Positions 4,586-51,025 of a stretch of 64,000 nucleotides of DNA are shown here, piece after piece (positions within the stretch are counted from its first letter, which is position 1; each line of letters starts with the position of its first letter). Both the position numbers and the translations under genes were made by a program. Source of the stretch: a virus; IMG/VR virus record IMGVR_UViG_3300036829_000104, positions 19,598 to 83,597 of that record. One strand, given 5' to 3'. The notes under the pieces were generated by a model. It worked only from the letters and a program-made list of their open reading frames with translations, made no database searches and was not told where the DNA came from.

Positions 4586-4789
4586 TCATGCCGCCCTGTT
4601 GAGGGCGCGGTCTTGCTTGGCCCGGTACTGCCGCTCGATCGCCTCGGCTGACCCGGCCGGATGGCCCGGCCAGTACGCGGCGCCGGCGACGGCCCGAGCG
4701 CCTTCGGAGCAGGCGAGCGCGTCCCGTTCGGCGGAGGCGTCCCGGAGGATCCTCGCCGCGGCGGTGATGGCCTCGTCCCGGGTGATCAT
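4586..4789 (-). CDS. Small hypothetical protein co-transcribed with Xre regulator (67 aa)
   Basis: Begins MITRDEAITAAARILRDAS; helical, with SAERDALACSEG and EAIERQYRAKQDR. Its ATG overlaps the stop of the Xre-family gene, so the two are translated together. A regulator partner such as an antirepressor is possible from position alone; there is no domain evidence. Confidence 0.55.
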   Translation of the reverse strand: MITRDEAITAAARILRDASAERDALACSEGARAVAGAAYWPGHPAGSAEAIERQYRAKQDRALNRAA

Positions 4790-5109
4790 CAGGCGGCCTC
4801 GGCCTCGGCCGGCTCGGGCTGGTCGTCCTCGGCTGCCTCGCCCTGCGCTGCGCCGAGCTCGCGCATGATCGCGCTGACCGGCACGCGGAGGTTGCGGGCG
4901 ATGGTGTTGAGTGTGGTGACCCGCGCGCTGGAGACCTCGCGCTCGATGAGCGAGAGGGTTCCCTGCCGGATGCCGACCGCCGCGGCGAGGGCCTGCTGAG
5001 ACCAGCCGTCCTTCTCGCGGAGGGCCTTGATCGACGGCCCGTTCTGCCGGGGCGGTCCTGTCCGGCGGAGAGCGGCGCGGGACTTGATGTCCTCTTGTGT
5101 CCCTTCCAT
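4789..5109 (-). CDS. Xre/Cro-family repressor-like regulator
   Basis: 106 residues from ATG 5109 (118 if ATG 5145 is used). A classical HTH_3 domain spans about residues 25-80: IKALREKDGWSQQALAAAVGIRQGTLSLIEREVSSARVTT, with the helix-turn-helix in QQALAAAVGIRQGTLSLIE. Such proteins are phage CI/Cro-type repressors. The C-terminus is an acidic tail. The upstream region has two copies of CGTATAGSGATCAWT (5125-5139 and 5183-5197), the obvious candidate binding sites; the nearer one overlaps the longer N-terminal extension, a reason to prefer the internal ATG. The divergent HTH gene at 5327 completes a switch-like arrangement. Confidence 0.8.
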   Translation of the reverse strand: MEGTQEDIKSRAALRRTGPPRQNGPSIKALREKDGWSQQALAAAVGIRQGTLSLIEREVSSARVTTLNTIARNLRVPVSAIMRELGAAQGEAAEDDQPEPAEAEAA

Positions 5110-5124
5110 AAAGGACACAATAAC

Positions 5125-25398: not shown

Positions 25399-25572
25399 GT
25401 GAACGGCCTGTGCGAGTACGACGTGGCCGACACCGGCAGGCTCACCAGCGACGAACGCAAGGCACTGCTGAACGACATGGCCGCCGACGGCTGGCAACTG
25501 GACCACGTCGACGGCGTCCGCTACATCCTCAAGCGGCCGAGGCATGATCCCCGCGATCCGCGGGAACCCTAG
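25399..25572 (+). CDS. Small hypothetical protein (57 aa)
   Basis: VNGLCEYDVADTGRLTSDER then LLNDMAADGWQLDHVDGVRYILKRP, a compact alpha-beta protein. The GWQLxxVxxxxYxxxRP pattern is like small DUF4177-type proteins with a strand-helix-strand layout; that resemblance is tentative. Converges with the next gene, the stops overlapping by four bases. Confidence 0.5.
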   Translation: MNGLCEYDVADTGRLTSDERKALLNDMAADGWQLDHVDGVRYILKRPRHDPRDPREP

Positions 25573-25838
25573 TTGTCTCCGCCCTTCCGGCGCGGCTTCG
25601 GCCGGCCTGCCGCACCCTGACCGGGCAGGATCGCCTTCCACTCACGCCATTCCTGCTCCCGCTCAGGGAGCCAGCCCCGGTCGGGGATGCCGTTGCGGCC
25701 GGGCGCAAGCTCAATGTCGGGCTGCGGCCAGTTGTCGTAGCGCGCGAGCCATTTGGTGACGGTCTGAGGCTTGACGTCGAACAATGCCGCTATCCCGGCG
25801 ACGCCGAGGTGCCGAACCGGTTTCCGGTTGGTGCTCAT
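25569..25838 (-). CDS. Small winged-HTH protein under the shared palindromic motif (89 aa)
   Basis: RHLGVAGIAALFDVKPQTVTKWLARYDNWPQPDIELAPGRNGIPDRGWLPEREQEW is an excisionase/MerR-like DNA-binding domain with a basic tail (GRPKPRRKGGDN). GAAGGG precedes the ATG. The divergent copy of the TTGTC-type palindrome at 25863-25882 lies 24 bp upstream. This is a small DNA-binding protein within the regulon and could even be its regulator; that is inference. Confidence 0.65.
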   Translation of the reverse strand: MSTNRKPVRHLGVAGIAALFDVKPQTVTKWLARYDNWPQPDIELAPGRNGIPDRGWLPEREQEWREWKAILPGQGAAGRPKPRRKGGDN

Positions 25839-25862
25839 AATCCCTTCCCCGATGCTCCCGAT

Positions 25863-25882
25863 CTGTCCGCTTACACGGACGA
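25863..25882 (-). promoter_or_regulatory. Regulon motif copy 1 (degenerate)
   Basis: Read leftward: TCGTCCGTGTAAGCGGACAG, 24 bp before the ATG at 25838. It keeps the invariant TGTAA centre and the GTCC/GGAC arms of the motif found five more times in this region. Confidence 0.6.
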
Positions 25883-25927
25883 ATCTATCACCCGCCCCCG
25901 GCCGCATCGGGGTTTATCGTTCCCTCT

Positions 25928-27595
25928 TCAGAACAGGGTTGGGGCCGGTTCTTCCGCCTCCACCGCCGGCGCGGCTGGTGCCGGGACCCCGACGGGCGCC
26001 ACGCTGACAGGGATAACGGCCATCACGGTCCGGACGCTGGCCCCGGATGCCTTGAACGAGTCGTCGGGCAGCCGCTCGATCCAGCCACCATGGTCGGCGA
26101 CCAGCTTGCGGAACTCCTCGGCGGTCTTGTCCTGCCGGAACTCAACGCCGCCCGACATGATCGCGACGACCATTCCTCCGGGCTTGACGAAGCCGAGCGC
26201 GTGGGTGACGTGCCGGATGTCGGCCTGCCTGCCGAACGGCGGGTTCATCAGGACCCGGTCGTACGCCAGTAGCGGGGTCGGCTGAACCTCGAGGAAGTCC
26301 GCGCACCGCACGTCACCGACCTCCGGGGACCAGGTAGCGCGCAGTCGGCCGGCCAGTTGCCCGTTCAGTTCGATGCAGTCAACCGAGGCGACCAGCGGCG
26401 CCACCTTCGAGGCGATCGCGCCCAGGCCGGCTGACGGTTCAAGCACCGTCATATCGGCCTCAAGTTCGGCAGCGTCGATCATCCGCTCAGTCACGGCGGC
26501 CGGGGTCGGGAAATACTCGGTTGACCCGTCCACGACCACCGCCGCCTCACGCTCAGGCGGCCGCTCGACCGTGACCGGCGCGGGCTTCGGCCGGGCCTCC
26601 CGCTTCGGTGCCGTGACGGTGGTCGTGGTGCCCTGGTGCGGGCACTCGACTGACTTGATCGTCTCGTATGGCAGTTTGTCAGTCCACGTGTACTGGGTTT
26701 CGACGCTTACGGTCTTGGCGTTGACCCGGACCACCTTCGCGGGCTTGTCGTACCAGTGCGTTGATGTCACCGTGTCGCCGACGTGAACGTTTTCGCGGGA
26801 CAGCCGCACGTACCCGTTGGCCTCATGCTCAGCCAAGGCGGCCTTGTCGGCGGCCAGCTGGTGCTCCAGGAACGTCTTTCGCGCCTGCTGCGACTCCAGC
26901 CACGCACCCTCAGCGGGTTTCGCCTCGGGGGCGTAGTAGGCGCCGCGCCAGTCGTTCGCCGGCCGGGTGCCGTTGATCCGGTGGTTCACCTGGCGTAGGT
27001 CCGCTTCGGTCTTCGCGATCCTGCGGATGATCACTGCCGGGCGCTCCCGGTAGGCGTCGGCGTCGCCGACCACGGCGGCGGCTGCGGCGGCACGCTCAGC
27101 CTTGCCGTACGCGACGTGCGCCGCCCGGTCGTTCTGCTCGATCCGCTTCTGATCGGCGCGGGCACCGCGCTCGGAGTGATGGCCTACCAGGATCGGCTGC
27201 CCGCCCGCGAATCGCTCGGCGATCTGATTGGCGCGTGCCATGCGCGCCCCGGCCTCCGCCGTGTTCCTGGCCGCTTTAGCAGTCAGCCGGTCGTAGCGGG
27301 CGTCTAGGCGGTCCGCCCGGTCAGCCTTGACCTCGCCCACATTGCGGGGCGTGTCGTCAATCTCGACTGTGACCTCGTGTCCGGCCGCCTCCAGCGCCTT
27401 GCGTGCCTGGTCGATCTGCCACCGCTTGGCGAGATGGTCACGGGACTGCGGGATGCCGATCATCTTGATCGACGGGAAGTAGCGGAACCGGGCGGCGGTC
27501 CGCGGGCCGATGAGTTCGTACACCCCGTCGCCCTTGCTGGTGCCGTAGACGAGCGTTCCGTCCTCGTGCGTGTGCTTGATGGTGATCTCTGCCAC
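25928..27595 (-). CDS. DUF3560 domain fused to an N6-adenine-type DNA methyltransferase
   Basis: 555 residues from a GTG with GAGGAG eight bases upstream. The N-terminal half, VAEITIKHTHEDGTLVYGTS then FRYFPSIKMIGIPQSRDHLAKRW and long charged helices with IAERFAGGQPILVGHHSE, matches the DUF3560 pattern found in plasmid and phage proteins. The C-terminal part is a Rossmann methyltransferase with TVLEPSAGLGAIA (SAM site) and MNPPFGRQ (catalytic NPPF near residue 453). NPPF enzymes methylate adenine N6 or related amines. In a mobile element it most likely protects DNA or modifies it to resist host enzymes. Confidence 0.8.
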   Translation of the reverse strand: MAEITIKHTHEDGTLVYGTSKGDGVYELIGPRTAARFRYFPSIKMIGIPQSRDHLAKRWQIDQARKALEAAGHEVTVEIDDTPRNVGEVKADRADRLDARYDRLTAKAARNTAEAGARMARANQIAERFAGGQPILVGHHSERGARADQKRIEQNDRAAHVAYGKAERAAAAAAVVGDADAYRERPAVIIRRIAKTEADLRQVNHRINGTRPANDWRGAYYAPEAKPAEGAWLESQQARKTFLEHQLAADKAALAEHEANGYVRLSRENVHVGDTVTSTHWYDKPAKVVRVNAKTVSVETQYTWTDKLPYETIKSVECPHQGTTTTVTAPKREARPKPAPVTVERPPEREAAVVVDGSTEYFPTPAAVTERMIDAAELEADMTVLEPSAGLGAIASKVAPLVASVDCIELNGQLAGRLRATWSPEVGDVRCADFLEVQPTPLLAYDRVLMNPPFGRQADIRHVTHALGFVKPGGMVVAIMSGGVEFRQDKTAEEFRKLVADHGGWIERLPDDSFKASGASVRTVMAVIPVSVAPVGVPAPAAPAVEAEEPAPTLF

Positions 27596-27675
27596 CGTTA
27601 CAGCTCCTCTCGTAACCGGCCGGATGGCCGCGGCACGCGGCGCAGCGGGAGGCGCCGGGCACCGCGGCCAGCCGG

Positions 27676-28245
27676 TCAGCGTCCCGGCTGAAGACGCGCC
27701 TTGGCGTCCTCGTAGCGGGCCCACGCGGCCATGAACTGCTCGGGGCTGCCGCCGCGGTCGGGGTGGACGGCAGCCGCCTCGTTCCTCAGCCGCTTCACTT
27801 CTTCGAGCAGCACCGGGTCAGCGTCCGGGGCGTCGTCGGTGAAGTCACCGATCGGGTCGGTCTGCGCGAAGTCGAACAGCGCCATCCACGACGCGCCGTA
27901 GAACACTTCACCGTTCGGGTTCTCCGGGGTCATCCGGTCCTCGTCGCGACCGGTTCGGGGATGCATGAGCAGGATCGCGGTTTCACCCTTGCGGACCTGC
28001 CGGCCCAGTTTCCGCCAGGTCTCGTACTTGTGCAGGCAGGTTGCGCGCGGGTACTGGACCCACAGGCGGCGCAGGTTGTTCTCGTTGTACCGGTCACCCC
28101 AGCGGGCGAGGAACGCCGCAACGTCCGGGTCGCTGTCGTCGACCGCCTCGCCGGCCAGTTCGATCTCAGCCTTGCGGGCGTCAAGCTGCTCTTTGCGCTC
28201 GGCTGACATCTTCCGGGCCGGCCTGCGGGTCTTGGTCGCCGCCAT
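27676..28245 (-). CDS. ArdC-like N-terminal domain fused to a J-domain-like tail
   Basis: 189 residues. Residues ~50-100 (NENNLRRLWVQYPRATCLHK then WRKLGRQVRKGETAILLMHP) match the ArdC N-terminal single-strand-binding domain, known from antirestriction proteins of conjugative plasmids. Residues ~145-185 (LLEEVKRLRNEAAAVHPDRGG then EQFMAAWARYEDAKARL) contain the HPD tripeptide at ~161-163 and flanking helices of a J domain. The ArdC metalloprotease half is absent. The regulon motif is 22 bp upstream. A role in protecting incoming DNA, perhaps recruiting an Hsp70, is inference. Confidence 0.75.
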   Translation of the reverse strand: MAATKTRRPARKMSAERKEQLDARKAEIELAGEAVDDSDPDVAAFLARWGDRYNENNLRRLWVQYPRATCLHKYETWRKLGRQVRKGETAILLMHPRTGRDEDRMTPENPNGEVFYGASWMALFDFAQTDPIGDFTDDAPDADPVLLEEVKRLRNEAAAVHPDRGGSPEQFMAAWARYEDAKARLQPGR

Positions 28246-28267
28246 GGGTTCCTCCTGAACAAGTGGT

Positions 28268-28286
28268 TTGTCCGCTTACAAGACAA
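28268..28286 (-). promoter_or_regulatory. Regulon motif copy 2
   Basis: Read leftward: TTGTCTTGTAAGCGGACAA, 22 bp before the ArdC-like gene. One base shorter in the centre than the other copies, with both arms perfect. Confidence 0.7.
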
Positions 28287-28344
28287 TCGTCTTCCGCCGG
28301 TCCGTAGAACGTCAAGTTAAACGGACGACATTAGTGGGCAGCGG

Positions 28345-28378
28345 AAAGGACCCGGAGCCTTGAGGCCGCGGGTCCTTT
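28345..28378 (-). terminator. Terminator of the first INLARPN micro-protein gene
   Basis: A 10-bp stem (AAAGGACCCG at 28345-28354 with CGGGTCCTTT at 28369-28378) lies 18 bp beyond the stop at 28396 on the leftward strand, before the next motif at 28268-28286. Confidence 0.65.
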
Positions 28379-28395
28379 CGGGGGGGCTTCGGGGG

Positions 28396-28569
28396 TTACT
28401 CGGCGACGCGGGTGAGGACCGGGAAGTTCGGGCGGGCCAGGTTGATCTCGGTGACCTTGTAATCGGTGCCCTCGACGTTCACGACCTGGCCGATCTGGAC
28501 GACGCCCGGGACGAAGACCTTGGTGAGCTGCTTGGCGGTCTTGCTGGTCTTGGCGGTCTTGGTGGCCAT
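28396..28569 (-). CDS. INLARPN micro-protein, copy 1 (57 aa)
   Basis: MATKTAKTSKTAKQLTKVFV then a beta-rich end GQVVNVEGTDYKVTEINLAR and PNFPVLTRVAE. The segment GTDYKV-EINLARPN-PVL is shared with the 51-residue protein encoded on the other strand at 30836-30991. The N-terminus is Lys/Thr rich, as in small DNA- or RNA-binding proteins. It has its own regulon motif 23 bp upstream and its own terminator. The conserved core looks like a small beta barrel of four strands. Function unknown; the pair is a good candidate for an undescribed family. Confidence 0.7.
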   Translation of the reverse strand: MATKTAKTSKTAKQLTKVFVPGVVQIGQVVNVEGTDYKVTEINLARPNFPVLTRVAE

Positions 28570-28592
28570 CTCGTTTACCCCTGACTGGTGTG

Positions 28593-28612
28593 TTGTCTGC
28601 TTACAAAGACAA
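28593..28612 (-). promoter_or_regulatory. Regulon motif copy 3
   Basis: Read leftward: TTGTCTTTGTAAGCAGACAA, 23 bp before INLARPN copy 1. Arms TTGTCT/AGACAA pair perfectly around the conserved TTGTAAGC centre. Confidence 0.75.
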
Positions 28613-28674
28613 CATTACAAGCTGGCGCAACGGAAGACAACCGAGGAAGCCAGATTTTTACGCATAGGAGTTCG

Positions 28675-29457
28675 ATGCCAGCCAAGTGGATCGCCACCCG
28701 GGAACTGCCGCTCGCGGACCTCGAGCGGTTCCCCGGCAACGCCCGCCGCGGCGACGTCGACGAGATCCGCAAGAGCATCGCCCGCCACGGCCAGTACCGC
28801 GCCATCGTCGTCCGCCAGCACGATGACCGCTACACGGTCCTTGCGGGGAACCACACCGCCGACGCGCTCGAGGCCGAGGGCAGCAGCACCGCCCGCTGCG
28901 AGCTGATCGAGTGCAGCGACGACGAGGCCGTCCGTATCAACCTCGCCGACAACCGCACCGCCGAGCTAGGCGGCTACGACAACGAGGCTCTCGCCGCGCT
29001 CCTGTCCACGCTGGATAACGACTACGACGGCACCGGCTGGGCCGAGGAAGACATCACCGCCATCCTCGAAGAGTCCGACGGTGTCTTCGGCGGCGACGGC
29101 GAATGGGACGGCGGCGACGGGGAGCCTGCCCCGAACCGCGGGGAGCTGCTCGCGCTCGCCGGCGTCACCATCGGGGAACCCCGGCACAAGGTCGAAACCG
29201 GCCAGGTCTGGGCGCTCGGCGACCACCGCCTCGTCATCGCGGACCTGTTCACCGGCTGGGAAGCATGGGCGCCGCTGCTCGACGGAGAGGTCACGTTCCT
29301 GCCGTACCCGACACCGCTCGCCCCGCACGCCCCCGGCTACGGCCCGCTCATCATGGTGCAGCCCGAGGAGTTCCTCGCCGGCCACCTGCTCGACAAGTGG
29401 CAGGACATCACCGGCGGGGCACCCGTCGTCGTCAACGCCGAGGTGGCCGCGGCGTGA
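28675..29457 (+). CDS. ParB/Srx-like protein with degenerate methyltransferase-like tail
   Basis: 260 residues; ATAGGAG precedes the ATG. Residues 1-90 are a ParB N-terminal-like fold: FPGNARRGDVDEIRKSIARH and VLAGNHTADAL (GNHT at 58-61), which binds nucleotide. The second half has PRHKVETGQVWALGDHRLVIAD, the hallmark of ParB-methyltransferase fusions, but where the catalytic DPPY should be it reads LPYP (209-212), and the domain is truncated to ~100 residues. A methylase is therefore unlikely. The TGA overlaps the DpdA start, so it is coupled to the 7-deazaguanine system, as ParB-like genes are in several related phages. Confidence 0.75.
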   Translation: MPAKWIATRELPLADLERFPGNARRGDVDEIRKSIARHGQYRAIVVRQHDDRYTVLAGNHTADALEAEGSSTARCELIECSDDEAVRINLADNRTAELGGYDNEALAALLSTLDNDYDGTGWAEEDITAILEESDGVFGGDGEWDGGDGEPAPNRGELLALAGVTIGEPRHKVETGQVWALGDHRLVIADLFTGWEAWAPLLDGEVTFLPYPTPLAPHAPGYGPLIMVQPEEFLAGHLLDKWQDITGGAPVVVNAEVAAA

Positions 29458-30242
29458 CGGTCAAGAACACTGGCGGCGGCACGTTCGACCCGTCCGCGAG
29501 GCCCCTGTACTTCGCTGCAGGCACGAACTGGACCGGCAACGCGGTCAGATGGCCCCGCCACGTCCTCGTCGCGGTCAACGACATCCTCAACCCCGCCGAC
29601 GAGCAGAAACTCCTCGTTCAGCACCTGGACGATGGCCGTATCGTCCTCCTGGACTCGGGCATCTTCTGGCTCACGAACCAGCACAAGCGCGCCCACGGCG
29701 TCACGATGGACGAGGCGCTCGCCCTCCCGCCCGAGGAGATCGACGGGTTCGACGAGCTGTTCACCCGGTATGTGCAGGTCGTCAAGCGGTACGGGGACCG
29801 CCTGTGGGGCTGGACCGAGCTGGACCAGGGCGGCGCGGTGAACAAGCGCCGCACCCGCGCCCGCCTCGAGGCCGAGGGAATCACCCCCATCCCCGTCTAC
29901 CACCCGCTGAACGACGGCTGGGACTACTTCGACGAGCTCGCCGCCGGCTATGACCGGATGTGCTTCGGGAACATCGTCCAGGCATCCCGCCCGTCCCGGG
30001 TCCGGCTGCTGCACACCATGTGGGAGCGGCACCGCGCCTACCCGGACCTGTGGATCCACATCCTCGGCCTGACCGCCAACGAGTGGTGCATGTCCGTCCC
30101 GCCGGACTCCTGTGACTCCTCGACCTGGCTGTCCCCGCTGCGCTGGCCCGCGGTCCGCACCGAGACCGCGATGCTCCGCAAGACCCGCGACCTCGGCGCG
30201 CGGTTCTCCTACGACATCGACAACCCGGACACCCCGGCATGA
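29454..30242 (+). CDS. dpdA: DpdA-like 7-deazaguanine DNA transglycosylase
   Basis: 262 residues from GTG. The sequence has the abbreviated tRNA-guanine transglycosylase fold of phage DpdA proteins: a predicted beta strand then LLDSGIFWL (D67), WGWTELDQGG, YHPLNDGWDYFDELAAGYDR, and HILGLTANEWCMSVPPDSCDSSTW, a substrate-loop region. Bacterial TGT is about 370 residues; small DpdA2-type proteins of actinophages are about this length. The enzyme swaps guanine in DNA for a 7-deazaguanine base. The neighbours QueD, QueE and FolE supply precursor, and the ParB-like gene is coupled upstream. The exact subfamily and final base are not determined by sequence. Confidence 0.75.
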   Translation: MTVKNTGGGTFDPSARPLYFAAGTNWTGNAVRWPRHVLVAVNDILNPADEQKLLVQHLDDGRIVLLDSGIFWLTNQHKRAHGVTMDEALALPPEEIDGFDELFTRYVQVVKRYGDRLWGWTELDQGGAVNKRRTRARLEAEGITPIPVYHPLNDGWDYFDELAAGYDRMCFGNIVQASRPSRVRLLHTMWERHRAYPDLWIHILGLTANEWCMSVPPDSCDSSTWLSPLRWPAVRTETAMLRKTRDLGARFSYDIDNPDTPA

Positions 30243-30388
30243 CACGGGCCGACTCGTTCGGCATGTGCTCCGACGCGGTGACAGCGATCAACCTGGTGTG
30301 GAGGCACGCCGGCGCCCGGACAGCCGAACTGCTCGGCCAGCCCGCCCATCCCGCGCACGTCATGAACGAGAGGCCAGCAGCCAAATGA
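30239..30388 (+). CDS. Small protein between DpdA and the T-fold protein (49 aa)
   Basis: MTRADSFGMCSDAVTAINLV then WRHAGARTAELLGQPAHPAHVM. Overlaps both neighbours by four bases (ATGA on each side), so it is translated with them. No family recognised; a single helix pair. Confidence 0.55.
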   Translation: MTRADSFGMCSDAVTAINLVWRHAGARTAELLGQPAHPAHVMNERPAAK

Positions 30389-30741
30389 CCAGCCCCGGCA
30401 CCGTAACCGTGTGGGCGACCGCGCAGCTGCCCGGCTTCCACCGCTGGCCGGACGCACCGCCGTCCCGCGGCTACCTGTGCGACAGGCACCGGCACGTGTT
30501 CCACGTCAAGGCAACCGCCGCGGTGAGCCACGACGACCGGGACATCGAGTTCCACGACCTGTCCGACATGATCCGGACGTGGTGGGGACCTGGTGCCCGG
30601 GAGTGCGGGAGCGCGTCGTGCGAGTCGCTGGCGAGGGAGCTTGCCGGGTACCTGGGGGATCAGGGGGTCGTCGTGGCGTCGGTGGAGGTGTCGGAGGACG
30701 GCGAGTCGGGGGCGGTGCTCACGCTCCCGCCGGACGTCTGA
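30385..30741 (+). CDS. QueD-like T-fold protein of unknown function (118 aa)
   Basis: LPGFHRWPDAPPSRGYLCDR, then HRHVFHVKATAAV, and RDIEFHDLSDMI. The spacing of FH, a Cys, HxH and a later DxxFxxL recalls 6-carboxytetrahydropterin synthase (His, Cys, HGH, DFxxLK), but HGH is HRH and the catalytic-helix sequence differs. A paralogue of QueD acting on a pterin or deazaguanine intermediate is a reasonable inference. It lies in an overlapping run ParB-DpdA-small protein-this gene, apart from the true QueD downstream. A regulon motif follows at 30798. Confidence 0.55.
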   Translation: MTSPGTVTVWATAQLPGFHRWPDAPPSRGYLCDRHRHVFHVKATAAVSHDDRDIEFHDLSDMIRTWWGPGARECGSASCESLARELAGYLGDQGVVVASVEVSEDGESGAVLTLPPDV

Positions 30742-30797
30742 AATGTTGTCCCGCTTCCTTTTCCGGGCTTGTCTTCTGCCGGTCTCATCGGTGAGTA

Positions 30798-30817
30798 TTG
30801 TCTTTGTAAGCGGACAA
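30798..30817 (+). promoter_or_regulatory. Regulon motif copy 4 (rightward)
   Basis: TTGTCTTTGTAAGCGGACAA, 18 bp before INLARPN copy 2, in the same orientation relative to its gene as all leftward copies. This copy is closest to the consensus. Confidence 0.75.
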
Positions 30818-30835
30818 CACTTCAGGAGGCACCCG

Positions 30836-30991
30836 ATGACCAGCACCACGACCACCCCGGCCCAGATCACCGCCCACGTCCCCGCCGCCCGGTACGGTCA
30901 GGTCGTCACGATCGACGGCACGGACTACAAGGTCATCGAGATCAACCTGGCCCGCCCGAACCACCCGGTCCTCGCCCCGATCAGCAAGTAA
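30836..30991 (+). CDS. INLARPN micro-protein, copy 2 (51 aa)
   Basis: MTSTTTTPAQITAHVPAARY then GQVVTIDGTDYKVIEINLAR and PNHPVLAPISK. Paralogue of the leftward protein at 28396-28569, with a Thr-rich rather than Lys-rich start. AGGAGG precedes the ATG. With the motif upstream and a hairpin terminator downstream, it is a complete cassette of about 240 bp between DpdA/T-fold genes and queD. Confidence 0.7.
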   Translation: MTSTTTTPAQITAHVPAARYGQVVTIDGTDYKVIEINLARPNHPVLAPISK

Positions 30992-31008
30992 CACCAGCCA
31001 GGCCCCGG

Positions 31009-31040
31009 CCCCGGCACCCCGCAGCGGAGTGCCGGGGTTT
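31009..31040 (+). terminator. Terminator after INLARPN copy 2
   Basis: CCCCGGCAC (31009-31017) pairs with GTGCCGGGG (31029-31037), followed by TTT. The stop codon is at 30991 and queD starts 55 bp beyond. Confidence 0.65.
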
Positions 31041-31094
31041 CCGCTTGCCCGCACCCGAGCCTTCACGGCCTCCAACCCTGCAGAGGTAGTCCCC

Positions 31095-31517
31095 TTGCAC
31101 GAAGTCACCGTGCGCCACAACTTCGAGACCGCTCACCGGCTGCCGCACCTTCCCGGCAAATGCCAGTCCCTCCACGGCCACTCGTGGTGGGCGCACGTCA
31201 CCGTCTCCGCCCCCGAGGTCGCCGCCGGGGTGCTGGTCGAGTTCGGCCCGTTCAAGGCCGCGCTCCGCGCGTGGATCGACACCCACCTAGACCACGGGTC
31301 GATGCTGGGCCCCGACGACCCGCTCGTCCCGCTGCTGCGCGCCGAGGGCTGCAAAGTCCACGAGGTGCCCGGCTGGCCGACCGTGGAGAACGTCGCCGCC
31401 ATGCTCGCGGAGGTCGCCGCGGCCGAGCTGGAGAACCTGGTCCGCGCACCGCACGCCACGGTGACCGGCGTGCGGGTCACCGAAACCCACGTGAACGAGG
31501 CCGCATGGCTGGCCTGA
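31095..31517 (+). CDS. queD: 6-carboxy-5,6,7,8-tetrahydropterin synthase
   Basis: 140 residues from TTG 31095 with AGAGG upstream. FETAHRLPHLPGKCQSLHGHSWWAHVTV is the QueD/PTPS signature: zinc ligands H14, H27 and H29 and the catalytic Cys C23. VLVEFGPFKAALRAWIDTHLDHGSML supplies the DFxxLK-like helix and the DH pair; VRVTETHVNEAAW ends the fold. It converts dihydroneopterin triphosphate, made by FolE, to carboxytetrahydropterin. It overlaps queE by 13 bases, and queE overlaps folE, forming a compact precursor operon. Confidence 0.9.
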   Translation: MHEVTVRHNFETAHRLPHLPGKCQSLHGHSWWAHVTVSAPEVAAGVLVEFGPFKAALRAWIDTHLDHGSMLGPDDPLVPLLRAEGCKVHEVPGWPTVENVAAMLAEVAAAELENLVRAPHATVTGVRVTETHVNEAAWLA

Positions 31518-32227
31518 CCGTGACCGCGGACACCCTCGTCGTCGCGGAGGCGTTCGGCCCCACGGTGCAGGGCGAGGGCCCATCGGCCGGCCGGCAGGCG
31601 TCGTTCATTCGCCTCGGCGGCTGCGACCTGCACTGCACATGGTGCGACTCGGGGTTCACCTGGGACGCTCAGCGGTTCGACCTGCGCGCCGAACTGGTCC
31701 GCCGTGACGTCGACAGCATGCTCGCCGAGGTGCTGGGGTACGGGACGCCGCTCGTGGTGATCACCGGCGGGGAGCCGCTGCTGCACCAGAACCAGCCCGG
31801 ATGGGACCGGCTCCTGACCGGTCTTGCGGCCGCGGACCGCGACATCGAGGTCGAGACGAACGGCACCCGCGCGCCGGGCGAGACCACGGCCCGCCTCGTC
31901 ACCAGGTTCAACGTGTCGCCGAAGCTGAGCGGCGCCGGAGACCCGGAGTCCGCGCGCATCCGCCCGGACGCGCTGGCCGCGCTCGCCGCGACCGGCCGGG
32001 CGGTGTTCAAGTTCGTATGCGCCAGCCGCGCCGACCTCGACGAGGCAGCCCGCGTGGCGGCGCTCGCGGGCATCCCGCCCCGGCTGGTGTGGATCATGCC
32101 GGAAGGCACCGACCCGGCAACGCTCACCGCCCGGCTGCGGGAGCTCGCGGATCCCGCCGTCGCCGCGGGCTTCAACCTGACCACGCGGCTCCACGTGCTC
32201 GCGTGGGGAGATGAACGAGGACGATGA
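31505..32227 (+). CDS. queE: 7-carboxy-7-deazaguanine synthase
   Basis: 240 residues. Radical-SAM cluster cysteines C40, C44 and C47 sit in GGCDLHCTWCDSGFTW, preceded by EAFGPTVQGEGPSAGRQASFIRL, which is specific to QueE; VVITGGEPLLH is the SAM-binding GGEP and DIEVETNGT follows. The enzyme rearranges carboxytetrahydropterin to 7-carboxy-7-deazaguanine (CDG). No QueC lies next to it, so CDG itself or a host-made product must feed DpdA. Confidence 0.92.
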   Translation: MAGLTVTADTLVVAEAFGPTVQGEGPSAGRQASFIRLGGCDLHCTWCDSGFTWDAQRFDLRAELVRRDVDSMLAEVLGYGTPLVVITGGEPLLHQNQPGWDRLLTGLAAADRDIEVETNGTRAPGETTARLVTRFNVSPKLSGAGDPESARIRPDALAALAATGRAVFKFVCASRADLDEAARVAALAGIPPRLVWIMPEGTDPATLTARLRELADPAVAAGFNLTTRLHVLAWGDERGR

Positions 32228-32799
32228 CCCACCAGCACGAAACCCACCCGGCCACGGCCCACGCCCGCGCGATGCTGACCGCCCTCGGCGTGGACTGCAC
32301 GGGGGAGGACACCGCCGACACGCCGGCCCGCCTGGTCGGCGCACTCGCCGAGCTGACCGCGGGCCTCGAGCTCGACCCGGGCAGGCACCTCGCGGTGACC
32401 TTCCCGCCGCCGTCAGCTGACCCACCGATGGTGGTCGTGCCCGGCATCCCGATCTCCTCGGTGTGTGAGCATCACGTGCTGCCGTTCACCGGCACGGCCA
32501 CGATCGCGTACCTGCCAGCCGGGCGGATCGTCGGCCTGTCGAAGCTCGCCCGGGTGGCACAGGAGTTCGCGGCCCGCCCGCAGGTGCAGGAGCGCCTCGG
32601 GGACCAGATCGTCACCGCGATCGACAAGCACCTCGACACGCGCGGCGCCGCGTGCATGATCACCGCCGTCCACTCGTGCATGACGCTGCGCGGCGCGAAG
32701 GCGGCCGGCGCGAAGATGGTCACCTCGCACCTGACCGGGCTGTTCCGGGAAGACGCCGCAGCGCGGGCCGAGTTCATCCAACTCGCCCGCACCGCCTGA
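32224..32799 (+). CDS. folE: GTP cyclohydrolase I
   Basis: 191 residues, the full GTP cyclohydrolase I core. SSVCEHHVLPFTGTATIAYLP gives zinc ligands C81 and H84, and AVHSCMTLRGAK gives C152. GLSKLARVAQEFAARPQVQERL and MVTSHLTGLF are family signatures. It makes dihydroneopterin triphosphate from GTP, the first step towards preQ-type bases. The ATG overlaps the end of queE. Confidence 0.93.
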   Translation: MTHQHETHPATAHARAMLTALGVDCTGEDTADTPARLVGALAELTAGLELDPGRHLAVTFPPPSADPPMVVVPGIPISSVCEHHVLPFTGTATIAYLPAGRIVGLSKLARVAQEFAARPQVQERLGDQIVTAIDKHLDTRGAACMITAVHSCMTLRGAKAAGAKMVTSHLTGLFREDAAARAEFIQLARTA

Positions 32800-32803
32800 C
32801 AGG

Positions 32804-33025
32804 CTACCGGCCAGGATCGTCCAGCACCTTGTCGCCGATACCCGGCTGGTAGAGGTGCAGGCGTTCGGGGCTGATCCACACCGTGAACACGGAGCGCGCG
32901 ACCTCGGCGTCACGGCTGCTACGGCCGGCCACCGCCTCCGCCTCAGCCGCCGACTCGTACCCGCTCCAGCGCGAGCCGTCGTTCCACTCGATCGCAAAGG
33001 TCTCGTAACTCCGTTCGATCACCAT
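32804..33025 (-). CDS. Hypothetical protein (73 aa)
   Basis: MVIERSYETFAIEWNDGSRW, GYESAAEAEAVAGRSSRDAEVARSVFTVW. A strand-helix-strand protein without a known motif. Leftward, convergent with folE at only four bases' distance. It has no regulon motif; upstream is the hairpin that ends the next leftward cassette. Confidence 0.5.
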   Translation of the reverse strand: MVIERSYETFAIEWNDGSRWSGYESAAEAEAVAGRSSRDAEVARSVFTVWISPERLHLYQPGIGDKVLDDPGR

Positions 33026-33068
33026 CGTGTGCTCCTCCTCGGGATTGCAGTTGGGACGGCCGGGTGCA

Positions 33069-33100
33069 GCGCGGGCCGGGTTTACGGACCTAGCCCGCGC
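33069..33100 (-). terminator. Terminator of the leftward 33116 gene
   Basis: GCGCGGGC (33069-33076) pairs with GCCCGCGC (33093-33100), 15 bp past the stop at 33116 on the leftward strand. The loop is 16 bases. Confidence 0.5.
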
Positions 33101-33115
33101 CGCGTAGGTGCTGGG

Positions 33116-33358
33116 TCATATGACGGCCAGCATGCTGGTGTGGACTTTGACCGTTCCGGTGCCGCCGTCGCGGGACAGCGTCGCGATCGAGTCGCGGATG
33201 CTGGCGACGGTCCACTCGGTGCCGGCGAGGTGCCATTCCCGGCCCATGTAGCGAACCCGGCGGCCGGCCCACGGGTGCTGGTTCTCGGGGACGATCCACA
33301 TGGCGGGGTCGCTGTAGTCGATGTCAGCGGCCGGGTTCTGGGTGCCGGTGGTGGTCAT
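33116..33358 (-). CDS. Hypothetical protein in the regulon (80 aa)
   Basis: MTTTGTQNPAADIDYSDPAM, then WAGRRVRYMGREWHLAGTEWTVASIRDSIATLSRDGGTGTVKVHTSMLAVI. Like the INLARPN proteins it is small and beta-rich with a Thr-rich N-terminus, suggesting a small beta-barrel, but the sequence differs. The regulon motif lies 17 bp upstream and a hairpin follows its stop, so it is another self-contained cassette. Confidence 0.6.
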   Translation of the reverse strand: MTTTGTQNPAADIDYSDPAMWIVPENQHPWAGRRVRYMGREWHLAGTEWTVASIRDSIATLSRDGGTGTVKVHTSMLAVI

Positions 33359-33375
33359 CGGGTCCTCCTCAAGTG

Positions 33376-33395
33376 TTGTCTCCTTACAAGGACAA
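33376..33395 (-). promoter_or_regulatory. Regulon motif copy 5
   Basis: Read leftward: TTGTCCTTGTAAGGAGACAA, 17 bp before the ATG at 33358. Confidence 0.75.
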
Positions 33396-33429
33396 TAATC
33401 ATCGATGGGCCGGGCAGAAGACAAGCGAA

Positions 33430-33458
33430 GCGCGGACCGGATTCAACCCGGCCCGCGC
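33430..33458 (-). terminator. Terminator of the RGHDSR gene
   Basis: GCGCGGACCGG (33430-33440) pairs, with one mismatch, with CCGGCCCGCGC (33448-33458). It lies just past the stop at 33471 and before the motif of the next leftward cassette. Confidence 0.6.
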
Positions 33459-33470
33459 CCCGCACCCAGG

Positions 33471-34367
33471 TCACGCCGCCTCGCTGGCCGCCCGCTTCGC
33501 GTCAGCCCGGTCCAGCGCCTTCGCAACCTTCCCGGCGAACCGGTCGCTGATCGCCGCAGCGGTCTTCGCGACCTGCTCGCGGGTCATCTCGCCGGCCACG
33601 TACCCCGCGGTCAGCTTCTTCGCGTACCGCGAGTCGTGACCCCGCACGAACGTCCGGGACGCCGCCTCACCGCAGCACGGGCAGGTGCCGGTACCGGGCC
33701 TGCTCTCCTCGTCCGCCTGCGCGAGGGACTTCACGAGCTTGCCGTGGAACCGCTCGCTCACCTTGCCAGCAGCTTCGATGACCTGCTCGCGGGTCATCTC
33801 GCCTGCCTTGTACGCGGCACGCAGCTTCGATGCGAACCGCGAGTCGTGACCGCGGGCGAACACCCGCGCGGTCAGCTCACCGCACCCGCAGGCGCACTGC
33901 TTGTCGGCCGGCTTCGGCTTGTAGGTGCCCTTCGCCTTCGGCGCCTTGACCTCAGCGGGCTCGTCCGCAGTCTCGGCCTCCGGCTCGCCGGCCTCGTCCT
34001 CGGGCTCGATGACCTCGGAGGCGTCTGCAGCTTCCTGCTGCGCGAGCCAGACGTCGGCGTCGATCATCGTGCCGTTGTCCAGCCCGCGCTGAATCGCGGC
34101 AGCCAGTTCCTCATCGGTCGGGTTGGCAGGGTCGGCCACAAACGGGGACACAGCCTCGCCGGTCTGCGGCGCCTCCTCCTGCACGGTCTCACCCTCGGCG
34201 GCGACCTGCGCGAGCCGCGCCTCGTGCCGCTTCGCCCGGCCGATCACGGTGGTGCGGGGAACGCCGAGCACCTTCGCTGCCTCGGTGGCGCTGCCGTCGG
34301 CTGCCTGCAAGGCGGCGTACGCCTGCACCTCGAGCTCAACCTTGCTGGTGGCGGTGGTGGTGGTCAT
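33471..34367 (-). CDS. HTH protein with two tandem RGHDSR zinc modules (298 aa)
   Basis: Residues ~10-50 (VQAYAALQAADGSATEAAKVLGVPRTTVIGRAKRH) form an Fis/HTH-like DNA-binding domain. A long acidic linker follows. Two copies of a ~65-residue module then occur: CACGCGELTARVFARGHDSR with YKAGEMTREQVIEAAGKVSERFHGK, and CPCCGEAASRTFVRGHDSR with YVAGEMTREQVAKTAAAISDRFAGK. Each has Cys ligands, an invariant RGHDSR and an EMTREQV helix. Proteins with RGHDSR modules occur in actinophages, but I know of no assigned function. The regulon motif lies 20 bp upstream. Confidence 0.7.
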   Translation of the reverse strand: MTTTTATSKVELEVQAYAALQAADGSATEAAKVLGVPRTTVIGRAKRHEARLAQVAAEGETVQEEAPQTGEAVSPFVADPANPTDEELAAAIQRGLDNGTMIDADVWLAQQEAADASEVIEPEDEAGEPEAETADEPAEVKAPKAKGTYKPKPADKQCACGCGELTARVFARGHDSRFASKLRAAYKAGEMTREQVIEAAGKVSERFHGKLVKSLAQADEESRPGTGTCPCCGEAASRTFVRGHDSRYAKKLTAGYVAGEMTREQVAKTAAAISDRFAGKVAKALDRADAKRAASEAA

Positions 34368-34387
34368 GGCTGGAGCCTCCCAAAGTG

Positions 34388-34407
34388 TTGTCCGTTTACA
34401 TGGATAA
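34388..34407 (-). promoter_or_regulatory. Regulon motif copy 6 (degenerate)
   Basis: Read leftward: TTATCCATGTAAACGGACAA, 20 bp before the ATG at 34367. It keeps the TGTAA centre and right arm. Confidence 0.65.
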
Positions 34408-34516
34408 GACTACCGGCGGACCTTCGGATAGGACAAGCCAGAAGACACGATTCGAACTCCCACTCGCTCACCACCGACCACCCATCCGCCAGCCGCGCGA
34501 ACGCTGAGGGAGGGCC

Positions 34517-34849
34517 ATGACCACCCCCGGCAGCACAACCGCCCGGGGATACGGCAACAGCCATCAGCGCGAGAGAGCACGCTGGGAACCGGTCGTCGCC
34601 GCAGGCGAAGCATTCTGCAGCGAAACCATTTGCGTCATGCCCGCCCGCTGGATCAAGCCCGGCACTCAGTGGCACCTGGCTCACACGCCAGATCGCACGG
34701 GCTGGCTAGGACCAGCGCACGCCCGCTGCAACCTCGCCGAGCGCAACCGCCGCGTGAACGGAAGCCGCAGGAAATCCGGAAGCCGAAGCCGCGCCATCCG
34801 CAAACCCGGCCCCAAGACACTGCCGTGGCGCACCTCACGCCAGTGGTAG
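34517..34849 (+). CDS. HNH endonuclease next to terminase
   Basis: 110 residues. C34/C39 (FCSETIC), H56 in WHLAHTPDRTGW, H68 and C71/N72 in PAHARCNLAERNRR form an HNH fold; the basic tail (RKSGSRSRAIRKPG) would bind DNA. An HNH nuclease just before the terminase genes is typical of HK97-like siphophages, where it works with the large terminase in packaging. Start with AGGG upstream. Confidence 0.8.
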   Translation: MTTPGSTTARGYGNSHQRERARWEPVVAAGEAFCSETICVMPARWIKPGTQWHLAHTPDRTGWLGPAHARCNLAERNRRVNGSRRKSGSRSRAIRKPGPKTLPWRTSRQW

Positions 34850-47602: not shown

Positions 47603-50600
47603 ATGTCGACTGTCAGCGTCATCTATGACCTCGTCGGCCGCGACAACGTCAGCGGCACGTTCAAGAAGGCCGGGGACTCCGCCGATGGCCTGCGCGGCAC
47701 GCTCGGGACGCTCGGCAAGGCGGCCGTCGCGGCGGGCGCTGCGATCGCCGCTGGCGCGGTCGCGATCGGCGCCGAGTCCGTCAAGGCCGCGGTCCAGTTC
47801 CAGTCCAGCATGGAGAAGATCCACACGCAGGCGGGCGCCAGCCAGGGCGCGGTTGACTCGCTGACGAAAAGCGTCCTCCAGCTCGCCCCGTCCACGCAGC
47901 AAGGACCCGAGCAGCTCGCCGACTCCCTCTATCACCTGAAGTCCGTCGGCATGGACAACGCCGACGCGATGAAAGCGCTGAAGACCGCGTCCGACCTGGC
48001 GGCCGTCGGCGGCGCGAACCTGGAGGACACCACCAACGCGCTCGCCGGGGCGTGGCGGTCGGGGATCCGCGGCGCAACGGACTTCGGCAGCGCGGCCAGC
48101 ACAGTCAACGCCATCATCGGCGCGGGCAACATGCGGATGAGCGACTTTGTCGAGGCCATCGGCACCGGCATCCTTCCCTCGGCGAAGACGTTCGGGCTGT
48201 CGCTGTCGCAGGTGGGCTCCGCGCTCGCGCTGATGACGGACGAGGGCGTGCCCGCCGTCGACGCCGCGACACGGCTGCGGATGTCGTTCTCGCTGCTCGG
48301 CGCCCCGTCCGCCGCAGCGGACAAGGTGCTGAAGTCGATCGGCCTGTCCGGGCTCCAGCTGGCCAACGCGATGCGCGGACCGCAGGGCCTCATCGGCGCG
48401 ATCAGCCTGCTGAAGGACCACCTCGACGCTAGCGGCATGTCCGCGTCGAAGCAGGCGCAGATCATCAGCGCCGCGTTCGGCGGCGGCCGGTCCAGCTCGG
48501 CGATCATGACGATGCTGAACAACCTGGACGTGCTGGAGAAAAAACAGCAGCAGATCAACGACACGACCGGGAAGTACGGGTCAGCGGTCGCGGCGCAGAG
48601 ACAGACAGCGCAGGCCCAGTTCGCCATCCTGCGGTCGTCGATCGACACGCTGGGGATCCAGCTCGGCCTGGACCTGCTGCCACCGGTGACGGCGTTCGTG
48701 AAATACCTCGCGAAGACGGCGGTCCCGGCGGTCGCGAACTTCGCGCACACGCTCAAGTCCATCATCCCTGTCGATGCGATCAAGAGCGACTTCGACAAGG
48801 CGATGTCGTGGATCGACAAGCTGTTCGGCATCGACCAGAAGCCGAAGCCGGTCACGGTGCCGGTGAAGCTCGGGCCCGTGGTGGGCGGCATGAAGGCCCA
48901 GATCTTCAACGCGCCGGTTACGGTCCCGGCAAAGCTCGGCCCGGTCGTCGGCGGCACGAGCGCGCTGTACAACCTGCCCGCGACCACAGTCCAGGCCCGG
49001 CTGGGGCCGAAGATCGGCGGGACAGAGCAGATCTTCAACGCGCTGCCCGGCCAGGCGAAGAAGTCCGCGAGCAACTTCGCGGACACCCTGACCAGCGCGG
49101 TCAAGAAGGTCAACTGGGGCACGGTGTTCGCCGACGTGCTCCGCGGGGCAGTGAGCGGCGCGCAGCAGATCGGTGCGGCGTTCGTCGACTTGCTCGGGAA
49201 GATCAACTGGACGCAGGTGGGCGGAGCGGCTGCGAAGGTCATGGTCGGCCTCGTCGTCGGGATCTTCAACGGCCTCCTCCCGGCGATCCTGGACGAGGCG
49301 ATACATCACCCGCTCGACATGCTCCAGTTCGTCCTGGCGCTGATCCCGATCGGGCGGGCCGCCGGGATCCTCATCGACGTGCTCGACAAGGTCCCGTTCA
49401 TCGGCCCGCTGGCGAAGTTCTTCCTCGGCCCGGTCGCGAAGGTCGGGGACATGGTCGAGTCCGCGCTCGGGTCGATGCTTAAGAAGGTATTCGGCCCGGT
49501 CGCTGACCGGATCGGCGGATTTTTCAAGGGCGTCGGCTCGTGGCTGGCCGGCAAGGGCGAGTCCATCATCCTCGGCCTCTGGTACGGCGCGGAGGACGCC
49601 TGGGGAACCGTCGCCCGGTGGCTCGGCAAGTTCGGGGATTTCATCCTCGCCCCGTTCAAGGCGGCCGGGAAGTGGCTGCTCGAGAAGGGCTCGGACATCC
49701 TGTCCGGCCTGTGGGACGGCCTGAAGATCGCCTGGAACTGGGTCATCGGGTGGGTCGGGAAAATCGGCGGCTGGCTGCTCAGGCCCTACGCCAAGGCCGG
49801 AACATGGCTCCTCAGCAAGGGGCGGGACATCATCTCGGGCCTGTGGGACGGGCTGAAGGCGGCCTGGAACTGGCTCTGGTCGTGGATCACGAAGATCGGC
49901 GGCTGGATCGGCGGCGTCTTCGCCAAGGCCGGGAGCTGGCTGCTGGGTCACGGCCGTGACATCATCTCCGGGCTCTGGAACGGGCTGAAGGGCCAGTGGT
50001 CCGCCGCGTGGTCGTGGATCACGAAGATCGGCGGCTGGATCGGCGGCGTCTTCGCCAAGGCGGGCTCGTGGCTCGTCGGGCACGGCGGCGACATCATCTC
50101 CGGCCTGAAGAACGGCATGTTCAATGCCATGAAGGACATCGGCGGCTGGATCAAGACGTATGTGGTCGACCCGGTAGTGAACGCGGTCAAGCACTTCTTC
50201 GGCATCAAGAGCCCGTCCACCGTCATGGCCGGTCTCGGCGGCCACCTGATGAGCGGTCTGTTCAAGGGGATGATGGGCGCCGACCTGACCGGCATGATCC
50301 AGCAGATCTTCGGATCGATGCCGGACGCGCTCGGCGCCATCGTCCAGAAGGGCCTCGTGTCCATCACGAGCCTGCCGTCGAAGGCGCTGGATGCGATCGG
50401 CGGACTGGCAGGCAAGGGCGCCTCGTGGCTCAGCGGCCTGCTCGGCATCGGCGGCGGCGGCGGAGGCGGCAACGCCGGAAACCAGGCGATCGGCAAGGCG
50501 ATGGCCGCGGCGATGGGCTGGACCGGCGGCCAGTGGACCGCGCTGCAGGCGCTGTGGAACCGGGAGTCCGGCTGGAACGCGCTCGCCAAGAACCCGTCCA

Positions 50601-51025
50601 GCGGCGCGTACGGCATCCCTCAGTCCCTGCCCGCGTCGAAGATGGCCAGCGCCGGGGCGGACTGGCTGACGAACGCGGCCACTCAGATCAAGTGGGGCCT
50701 CGGCTACATCGCGGCGACGTACGGGTCGCCCGCGGCTGCGTGGGCGCACGAGACGGCCGCGGGCTGGTACGGGCACGGCGGCAAGTTCGCCGCGGGGCAG
50801 CTGATCGGCGTCGGGGACCGCGGGCGCGAGCTGGTCAGCTTCGACCAGCCCGGCACCGTCCTGTCGCCGGAGCAGTCCGCGGCACTGGCGGCCAAGGGCC
50901 GGAGCGGCGATGGTCCGCTCGTCGGCACGCTGAACGTCAACCATGTGCCCGGTTTCACCACCACGAAGGACATCGAGAACGCGCTGACCATGGCCTCGCG
51001 CCAGGTGCGCCTTGGCCGGCGGTAG
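47603..51025 (+). CDS. Tape measure protein with C-terminal lytic transglycosylase domain
   Basis: 1140 residues. N-terminal phage tail TMP domain: FKKAGDSADGLRGTLGTLGKAAVAAGAAIAAGAVAIGA, SLYHLKSVGMDNADAMKAL and SVFSL-like AALAMMTDEG segments (residues ~1-330). A hydrophobic middle follows (residues ~530-640), then a 132-bp tandem repeat (residues ~688-863) with GSWLL and SGLWNGLK units. Near the C-terminus WTALQALWNRESGWNALAKNPSSGAYGIPQSLP is a transglycosylase active site (Glu in NRESGW). It sets tail length, forms the membrane channel and digests peptidoglycan at entry. Confidence 0.9.
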   Translation: MSTVSVIYDLVGRDNVSGTFKKAGDSADGLRGTLGTLGKAAVAAGAAIAAGAVAIGAESVKAAVQFQSSMEKIHTQAGASQGAVDSLTKSVLQLAPSTQQGPEQLADSLYHLKSVGMDNADAMKALKTASDLAAVGGANLEDTTNALAGAWRSGIRGATDFGSAASTVNAIIGAGNMRMSDFVEAIGTGILPSAKTFGLSLSQVGSALALMTDEGVPAVDAATRLRMSFSLLGAPSAAADKVLKSIGLSGLQLANAMRGPQGLIGAISLLKDHLDASGMSASKQAQIISAAFGGGRSSSAIMTMLNNLDVLEKKQQQINDTTGKYGSAVAAQRQTAQAQFAILRSSIDTLGIQLGLDLLPPVTAFVKYLAKTAVPAVANFAHTLKSIIPVDAIKSDFDKAMSWIDKLFGIDQKPKPVTVPVKLGPVVGGMKAQIFNAPVTVPAKLGPVVGGTSALYNLPATTVQARLGPKIGGTEQIFNALPGQAKKSASNFADTLTSAVKKVNWGTVFADVLRGAVSGAQQIGAAFVDLLGKINWTQVGGAAAKVMVGLVVGIFNGLLPAILDEAIHHPLDMLQFVLALIPIGRAAGILIDVLDKVPFIGPLAKFFLGPVAKVGDMVESALGSMLKKVFGPVADRIGGFFKGVGSWLAGKGESIILGLWYGAEDAWGTVARWLGKFGDFILAPFKAAGKWLLEKGSDILSGLWDGLKIAWNWVIGWVGKIGGWLLRPYAKAGTWLLSKGRDIISGLWDGLKAAWNWLWSWITKIGGWIGGVFAKAGSWLLGHGRDIISGLWNGLKGQWSAAWSWITKIGGWIGGVFAKAGSWLVGHGGDIISGLKNGMFNAMKDIGGWIKTYVVDPVVNAVKHFFGIKSPSTVMAGLGGHLMSGLFKGMMGADLTGMIQQIFGSMPDALGAIVQKGLVSITSLPSKALDAIGGLAGKGASWLSGLLGIGGGGGGGNAGNQAIGKAMAAAMGWTGGQWTALQALWNRESGWNALAKNPSSGAYGIPQSLPASKMASAGADWLTNAATQIKWGLGYIAATYGSPAAAWAHETAAGWYGHGGKFAAGQLIGVGDRGRELVSFDQPGTVLSPEQSAALAAKGRSGDGPLVGTLNVNHVPGFTTTKDIENALTMASRQVRLGRR
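49664..50191 (+). repeat. Four tandem 132-bp units in the tape measure gene
   Basis: Units start at 49664, 49796, 49928 and 50060, exactly 132 bp (44 codons) apart. About 50 bases starting at 49879 and 50011 are identical, so part of the expansion is recent. Confidence 0.75.

Follow-up and report, generated by a model that had tools for sequence, protein, structure and literature searches.

What acts at a short palindrome that stands before six scattered genes of one virus, on both of its strands? The question arises from a 64,000-nucleotide stretch of viral DNA (the window: bases 19598-83597 of the 83,597-b virus record IMGVR_UViG_3300036829_000104; G+C 69.7%), in which a preliminary description had noticed the six copies and had left two uses open, that of a DNA operator or promoter and that of an RNA hairpin. 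Here, we propose that the palindrome is the operator of a small helix-turn-helix (HTH) protein encoded at 25569-25838 on the minus strand, an Aca-like autorepressor whose operator would have spread into a dispersed, moron-type regulon. On the sequence comparisons set out here, we regard this proposal as probable.

All six copies lie where they had been described (25863, 28268, 28593, 30798, 33376 and 34388), within 25863-34407, and no further copy was detected in the 83.6-kb record. Each is sense-oriented to its own gene, that at 30798 on the plus strand and the other five on the minus strand; their ends lie 24, 22, 23, 18, 17 and 20 bp before the ATG (in coordinate order, 25863 first), and the central TGTAA is identical in all six. 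The arms, which had been said to pair, do so as TTGTC/GACAA in four copies and are changed at 25863 and 34388. A consensus search with up to three mismatches returned five sites in the window (25863-, 28593-, 30798+, 33376- and 34388-), against 0.00 expected from dinucleotide shuffles, 0/100 of which reached five; the sixth copy, 28268-, has one base fewer between TTGTC and TGTAA, giving a 19-bp palindrome. When a weight matrix built from the five ungapped copies was scanned over the whole 83,597-b record, those sites scored 29.3-39.0 and the gapped site 16.3, with the next best place at 8.8, and in leave-one-out matrices each of the five scored 20.8-36.6 and ranked within the first five record positions.

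These copies are not six independent events, as 30767-30829 matches 33364-33426 at 86% over 63 nt and the pair of INLARPN micro-protein genes, behind the copies at 28593 and 30798, are paralogous and share a 113-nt repeat (79%). Might the palindrome then be a passenger without operator function, carried in a promoter-bearing unit that recombination has copied? We give this almost no credence, since at the remaining sites, outside the 63-nt repeat, the flanks have diverged while the palindrome and its -10 register have been kept, and since other elements, too, have such a palindrome ahead of the HTH gene.

The register in question is that of a SigA-like promoter. At 6/6 sites the palindrome's first T closes a -10 hexamer that has A as its second base and T as its sixth, and at 5/6 a -35 element of the TTGTC or TTGAC type lies 17 or 18 bp before that hexamer. 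A random T of the record reaches the -35 score in 5.6% of draws, so that five of six corresponds to a binomial tail of 3e-6, a significance overstated because the repeats make some sites non-independent. Operator 1 (25863..25882, minus strand), a degenerate 20-bp copy before the HTH gene, has its -10 TAGATT at 25887-25882 after TGA. Operator 2 (28268..28286, minus strand; 19 bp), before an ArdC-like gene, follows -35 TTGACG (28315-28310) and -10 GACGAT (28291-28286), and operator 3 (28593..28612, minus strand) follows TTGTCT (28640-28635) and TAATGT (28617-28612). The consensus copy, operator 4 (30798..30817, plus strand), has TTGTCT at 30769-30774 and GAGTAT at 30793-30798; operator 5 (33376..33395, minus strand) has TTGTCT at 33424-33419 and GATTAT at 33400-33395; and operator 6 (34388..34407, minus strand) has TTGTCC at 34436-34431 and TAGTCT at 34412-34407. 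At the ArdC-like gene a second palindrome, TCGTCCGTTTAACTTGACGT (28309..28328, minus strand; 9/10 arm positions), carries the -35 and lies 42 bp upstream of operator 2.

Since the first T of the palindrome ends the -10 hexamer, transcription should start inside the palindrome, near its position 8-9; the palindrome would span about -7 to +13 of the predicted promoter, and the leader is predicted to keep the right arm only. This favours a DNA operator over a hairpin that acts on translation from the 5' leader, a use to which the 17-24 bp to the start codon and the ability of the arms to pair would be suited, and which we consider very improbable: its left arm would be absent from the mRNA, the degenerate copies hold uncompensated oppositions (C-A at 25863 and A-C at 34388), the palindrome stands anywhere from 43 to 740 bases from the HTH match in the relatives described below, and no Rfam family reaches its cut-off in the window. 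Of the two uses first suggested, it is the DNA operator or promoter that is supported, by the register and by the linkage to the HTH gene, and the hairpin that is not.

That linkage is seen in other elements. Two viral contigs, L094 and L102, encode homologues of the 25569 protein (59% and 52% identity) and have little else in common with the window over the 10 kb of each compared. Both carry a palindrome (TCGTCGTTGTACGCAGACGA in L094, TTGTCTGTGTAGCCAGACAA in L102) before small genes that lead into the HTH gene, 640 bases downstream in L094 and 928 in L102, and both palindromes have a -35 TTGACG and a -10 TAGATT in a register identical to that of the window. A matrix made from the window sites only gives them 20.4 (L094) and 26.1 (L102), against a maximum of 18.0 over 1.12 million background positions (some in overlapping loci; L001-L004, L054-L077, L094, L096-L110 and loci below 60% G+C were excluded). 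The two contigs are not independent witnesses, because their DNA is alike; in both, too, the -35 lies within a second palindrome 41 bp upstream. The window HTH protein found no match in phage and plasmid records, nor did the L094 HTH protein in phage records.

A wider family appears in actinomycete genomes. With a three-sequence HTH profile (E <=1e-4 for Pseudonocardiaceae and a class sample, E <=1e-5 for Streptomycetaceae), it was found in 34/297 genomes of Pseudonocardiaceae, the family of the Amycolatopsis anabasis genome, in 9/394 genomes of the class sample and in 0/200 Streptomycetaceae genomes; the best 13-26 candidates per genome were scored, so misses are possible. Matches came from 43 genomes, 34 of them with loci, and 33 loci remained once L111 (too short) was dropped. 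The pattern TYGTC-N7..11-GACRA occurs within 1 kb upstream of the HTH gene in 17/33 loci, compared with 1/33 downstream and 1/33 for the reversed pattern, and 200 shuffles gave a mean of 1.35 and a largest value of 6/33. Among the 23 sites in these 17 loci, an A2/T6 hexamer ends on the first T in 22, a count partly inflated because the palindrome's own extended arm contributes, and a -35 is present as well in 10. Nearest to the window is L121, in which TTGTCTTTGTAAGCGACAA is followed by a 113-aa gene and then the HTH gene. A scan for the extended operator covered 31/43 genomes (nine without loci, together with G046, G232 and G248, were left out) and found 11 sites in 10 genomes, 10/11 of them within 1 kb of an HTH gene, and none for the reversed control; because the pattern was drawn from these loci, the scan tests specificity and not presence. 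The extended operator stands at one locus per genome there, and at six units in the window phage. The promoter register, the exclusive location within one block of genes and the linkage of palindrome to HTH gene can be read from the DNA itself, and register and linkage back the earlier choice of the 25569 protein as a candidate binder, which had been named along with the HTH proteins at 24534 and 13092.

Six of the 34 HTH loci were widened to contexts of 12-16 kb. In four, the surroundings resemble a prophage head-gene region in which the HTH unit runs on the opposite strand, flanked by a minor-head gene on one side and by the scaffold and major-head genes on the other (neighbours assigned with PHROGs for L157, and from similar translations and gene order for the remaining three); the contexts L159 and L160 look chromosomal. 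In Mu-like Pseudomonas phages, acr-aca loci occupy a comparable position. Small genes precede the HTH gene in L094, L102, L156, L157, L158 and L161; for those of L094 and of the four prophages (60-213 aa), searches of Pfam and PHROGs gave no family at E <=0.01. The window HTH protein itself (89 aa; 25569..25838, minus strand, behind operator 1), the proposed autoregulator, matches HTH_23 below the cut-off and phrog_597. A structure model (mean pLDDT 66.5) has an HTH, a wing and a helix, and weakly resembles the DNA-binding domains of RacA, MerR-type proteins and BldC, the best Foldseek matches being RacA, BrlR and BldC at E 0.05-0.12, with none at E <=0.001; the single-sequence model was poor. 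Searched against the PDB, the protein had no Aca chain among its 4 matches at E <=10.

Could another regulator of the phage own the operator? The candidate is the XRE protein encoded at 4789-5109, possibly the immunity repressor, in which case the six units would belong to the lysis-lysogeny switch. A perfect palindrome with 8-bp arms, TTGTGTCC-N10-GGACACAA, lies at 5095-5120 over the start of its gene; apart from it, TTGT-N10..20-ACAA inverted repeats occur in the record only at four of the six sites. Its half-sites are spaced differently, however (with an outer span of 26 bp or an inner one of 20 bp), it has no TGTA core, and by an estimate from base composition about one such loose match is expected by chance. 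In other elements, moreover, the palindrome of the six sites is linked to a regulator of the 25569 family (the linkage of XRE homologues was not searched), and we find ownership by XRE or another regulator unlikely. The 5095-5120 palindrome may possibly serve autoregulation of the immunity repressor; a -35/-10 pair read by eye before the XRE gene would make its mRNA leaderless.

Several observations weigh against an operator of an Aca-like autorepressor. In the window, the promoter of the HTH gene itself, at the 25863 copy, is the one without a -35 match, and that copy is the weakest of the five ungapped ones by the matrix; the HTH gene stands alone and is not the last gene of an operon, and the second palindrome is found at only 1/6 promoters, that of the ArdC-like gene. 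Homology points to counter-defence for the ArdC-like and DpdA/Que genes only, and no operator directly precedes the DpdA/Que genes. Among the relatives, 16/33 HTH-family loci lack such a palindrome in the 1 kb upstream, the extended form is missing from 21/31 genomes, and one extended site (G821) has no detected HTH gene nearby. None of the six promoters was picked up by a generic promoter scan that requires >=9/12 matches to the E. coli consensus. The TGTA is invariant and held in one orientation at 9 sites of 4 aligned elements, an asymmetry that a symmetric dimer site does not need, and it is gone from most sites of the wider HTH family.

Some of these points would suit positive control, in which the palindrome is the site of an activator or an alternative sigma factor that turns the six genes on together: the fixed orientation, the invariant TGTA, and the failure of the generic scan along with the weakness of several -10 hexamers (GACGAT, GAGTAT). 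We hold positive control to be distinctly unlikely. At about -7 to +13 the site occupies a position from which a bound protein usually obstructs RNA polymerase, 5/6 promoters have both a -35 and a -10 so that no substitute is needed, and the loss of TGTA across the wider family counts against such a role as well.

If the palindrome is the operator of the 25569 protein, the course of events may be outlined as follows. Each copy would overlap the -10 box and the start point of a SigA-type promoter, and because of this overlap a bound HTH protein would block RNA polymerase. On entry into the cell, with the repressor absent, the promoters of all six units would fire at once; the HTH protein, building up, would then shut its own gene and the other units, a negative feedback. 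The controlled units would be short and mostly single-gene, on both strands, within an accessory block in which counter-restriction genes abound. Elsewhere among actinobacterial phages and prophages, the operator of the HTH family would sit on one promoter, before a small gene or genes and then the HTH gene, much like an acr-aca locus; here it would govern a dispersed regulon. Binding, repression, its timing and a counter-defence role for the uncharacterised small proteins are what we infer.

The block that holds all six operators measures 8.9 kb (25573..34516) and is absent from L086, a stretch of a 52.6-kb record and the closest backbone relative found (78% identity to a 753-aa protein, with gene order shared). 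In L086, about 5 bases or fewer separate the homologue of the gene that ends at 25572 from the next gene, a homologue of that at 34517 (53% identity over 72 aa), and because the two nearly abut we read the block as an insertion in the window phage or a loss in L086. As to conservation in related elements, by which the preliminary description had proposed to judge the motif, the answer is divided: the motif is missing from the backbone and DpdA relatives tested and is kept in elements that share the HTH gene. It was found in 0/8 backbone/DpdA records or genomes at <=1 mismatch (these include three duplicates, L005-L007 and L080-L082 being the same prophages). The L086 and L087 records have no site at <=2 mismatches; at 3, L086 has one, equal to its control, and L087 none. 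A near-match search of phage records gave no match, and when viral contigs were scanned with a degenerate pattern, 24 records showed a single site apiece, which probably reflects chance or a different phage group. A host-wide regulon was considered and found to be unsupported, with the exact 20-bp core in 0/394 actinomycete genomes (20-bp form only).

In L087, an ArdC homologue (66%) stands behind a repeated promoter of another kind, a 30-bp module TTGTCGnGTTCTACACTnnTnnnATATnAT that differs from the window palindrome and occurs before genes at five places in the 111-kb record (L089-L093; 0-3 mismatches, with the pattern drawn from two of the five). Because this homologue too lies behind a repeated module, such phages may more than once have put scattered small genes under a common promoter, with operators that differ from case to case. 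Repeated AT-rich stretches, promoter-like or palindromic, are also present in other DpdA phages (L049 at 5333, 6990 and 7814; L011 at 780 and 3396).

What, then, would the operator control? The block encodes ArdC-N-like, DUF3560/methyltransferase, ParB-like and DpdA-like proteins and QueD, QueE and FolE, with 7-deazaguanine genes among them; DpdA-type modification shields the DNA of phage CAjan from restriction (PMC6884629). Behind operator 2 lies the ArdC-N-like gene (189 aa; 27676..28245, minus strand), probably in one unit with the DUF3560/methyltransferase gene at 25928-27595 behind it. The latter is a fusion of DUF3560 with a methyltransferase-like region, and its C-terminal part matches PADLOC mad2. 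The INLARPN micro-proteins are encoded behind operator 3 (57 aa; 28396..28569, minus strand) and operator 4 (51 aa; 30836..30991, plus strand), an 80-aa protein with no assigned function (33116..33358, minus strand) under operator 5, and a 298-aa RGHDSR-repeat protein with weak HTH matches (33471..34367, minus strand) under operator 6. In the gene for the last, 33495-33884 holds a two-copy repeat (180 nt, 71%) with RGHDSR in each copy; no relative of the protein was found among viral contigs, and phage records gave two short matches. INLARPN homologues were absent from phage records, with one weak locus in viral contigs, and a match within a longer L102 reading frame, Hint-domain-like by eye, was not useful.

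The 51-aa INLARPN gene is part of a unit (30742..31094, plus strand) that comprises promoter, operator 4, gene and hairpin, between a 118-aa gene and QueD. In four Kitasatospora and Amycolatopsis relatives, the tblastn matches on either side of the junction that this unit fills are no more than about 15-25 bp apart, and for this reason, and for the hairpin after the gene, we read it as moron-like. The hairpin (31009-31037) has perfect 9-bp arms and is a possible terminator; a terminator scan did not list it. The cassette of ParB-like, DpdA-like, QueD, QueE and FolE genes (28675-32799) also occurs in Kitasatospora humi and Amycolatopsis genomes, and in L079 two DpdA-like matches lie side by side.

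The phage that carries the block is probably a temperate actinobacterial one, as suggested by a large terminase (weak Pfam matches; matches in 853 phage records, for the most part from actinobacterial phages) and, close to where the record ends, part of a serine recombinase. The record begins and ends with the same 118 b, an exact repeat (record bases 1-118 = 83480-83597), and so is probably a complete circular genome of about 83.5 kb; the recombinase gene may run on across the repeat junction. A long gene at 47603-51025, probably the tape-measure gene to judge from its size and place, contains five repeats at a spacing of 132 bp (49535-50116).

Going further, and tentatively, with the odds somewhat against it, the 25569 proteins may form a new Aca-type repressor family of actinobacterial phages whose operator, TYGTC-N9/10-GACRA, marks counter-defence genes; the dispersed regulon would then include new anti-defence proteins, the candidates being the INLARPN micro-proteins, the 80-aa protein and the RGHDSR protein. 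To our knowledge, few counter-defence genes are known in actinobacterial phages, and if this reading is true the operator would be a short sequence tag with which to pick them out. Comparison alone has here tied a regulator to its operator across phages and prophages.

In the open-licence literature we found no description of this HTH-operator pair, the operator sequence itself not having been used as a query. Many operator copies for one phage repressor are familiar from the conserved inverted repeats of phiC31 and the stoperators of mycobacteriophages; those sites, in contrast, are operators of the immunity repressor, distributed across the genome. The CUP/ArdK regulon of IncN plasmids, in which repeated upstream operators serve ardB, ardK and repA and the regulator is autoregulated (PMC6289460), shares repeated operators and autoregulation with the window and differs in being plasmid-borne, a likeness by description. 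In archaeal viruses with Aca8, early promoters are common to proposed anti-defence genes, some of them tested (PMC11065993); there too one regulatory sequence serves scattered small genes, including that of a proposed wHTH repressor, but the promoter elements are archaeal and the available part of the paper mentions no palindrome.

A like anatomy is known from the cluster K phage Adephagia, with seven intergenic ESAS copies that combine a SigA-like promoter of 17-18 bp spacing with an imperfect inverted repeat (PMC3203893, PMC11373665). A SigA-like promoter, that spacing, an inverted repeat and several intergenic copies are common to both phages, a likeness of architecture; the 13-bp SAS GGGATAGGAGCCC has 0 matches in the window at <=2 mismatches and 14 at 3, against 26.9 expected. 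A repressor is suspected for ESAS, and the available part of the 2024 Adephagia paper gives the regulator as unidentified (PMC11373665), whereas in the window phage a candidate regulator is linked, which offers a testable parallel for the ESAS promoters.

The proposed arrangement also resembles that by which phages govern anti-CRISPR and other counter-defence genes. Aca proteins control acr-aca operons through one or two inverted repeats (IR1 and IR2), with IR1 inside the core promoter (PMC9410906). In the window, likewise, a small HTH protein is encoded by a unit that it would control, and an inverted repeat lies inside the core promoter, as it also does in L094, L102 and 22/23 sites of the relatives. 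Several Aca families have a similar IR2 (PMC9410906), to which the second palindrome of L094, L102 and one window promoter may be compared, and in L094, L102, L156-L158 and L161 the HTH gene comes behind small genes, unlike the solitary HTH gene of the window. The window further differs from acr-aca loci in having no tested anti-CRISPR gene nearby, and in an operator that recurs on five other units.

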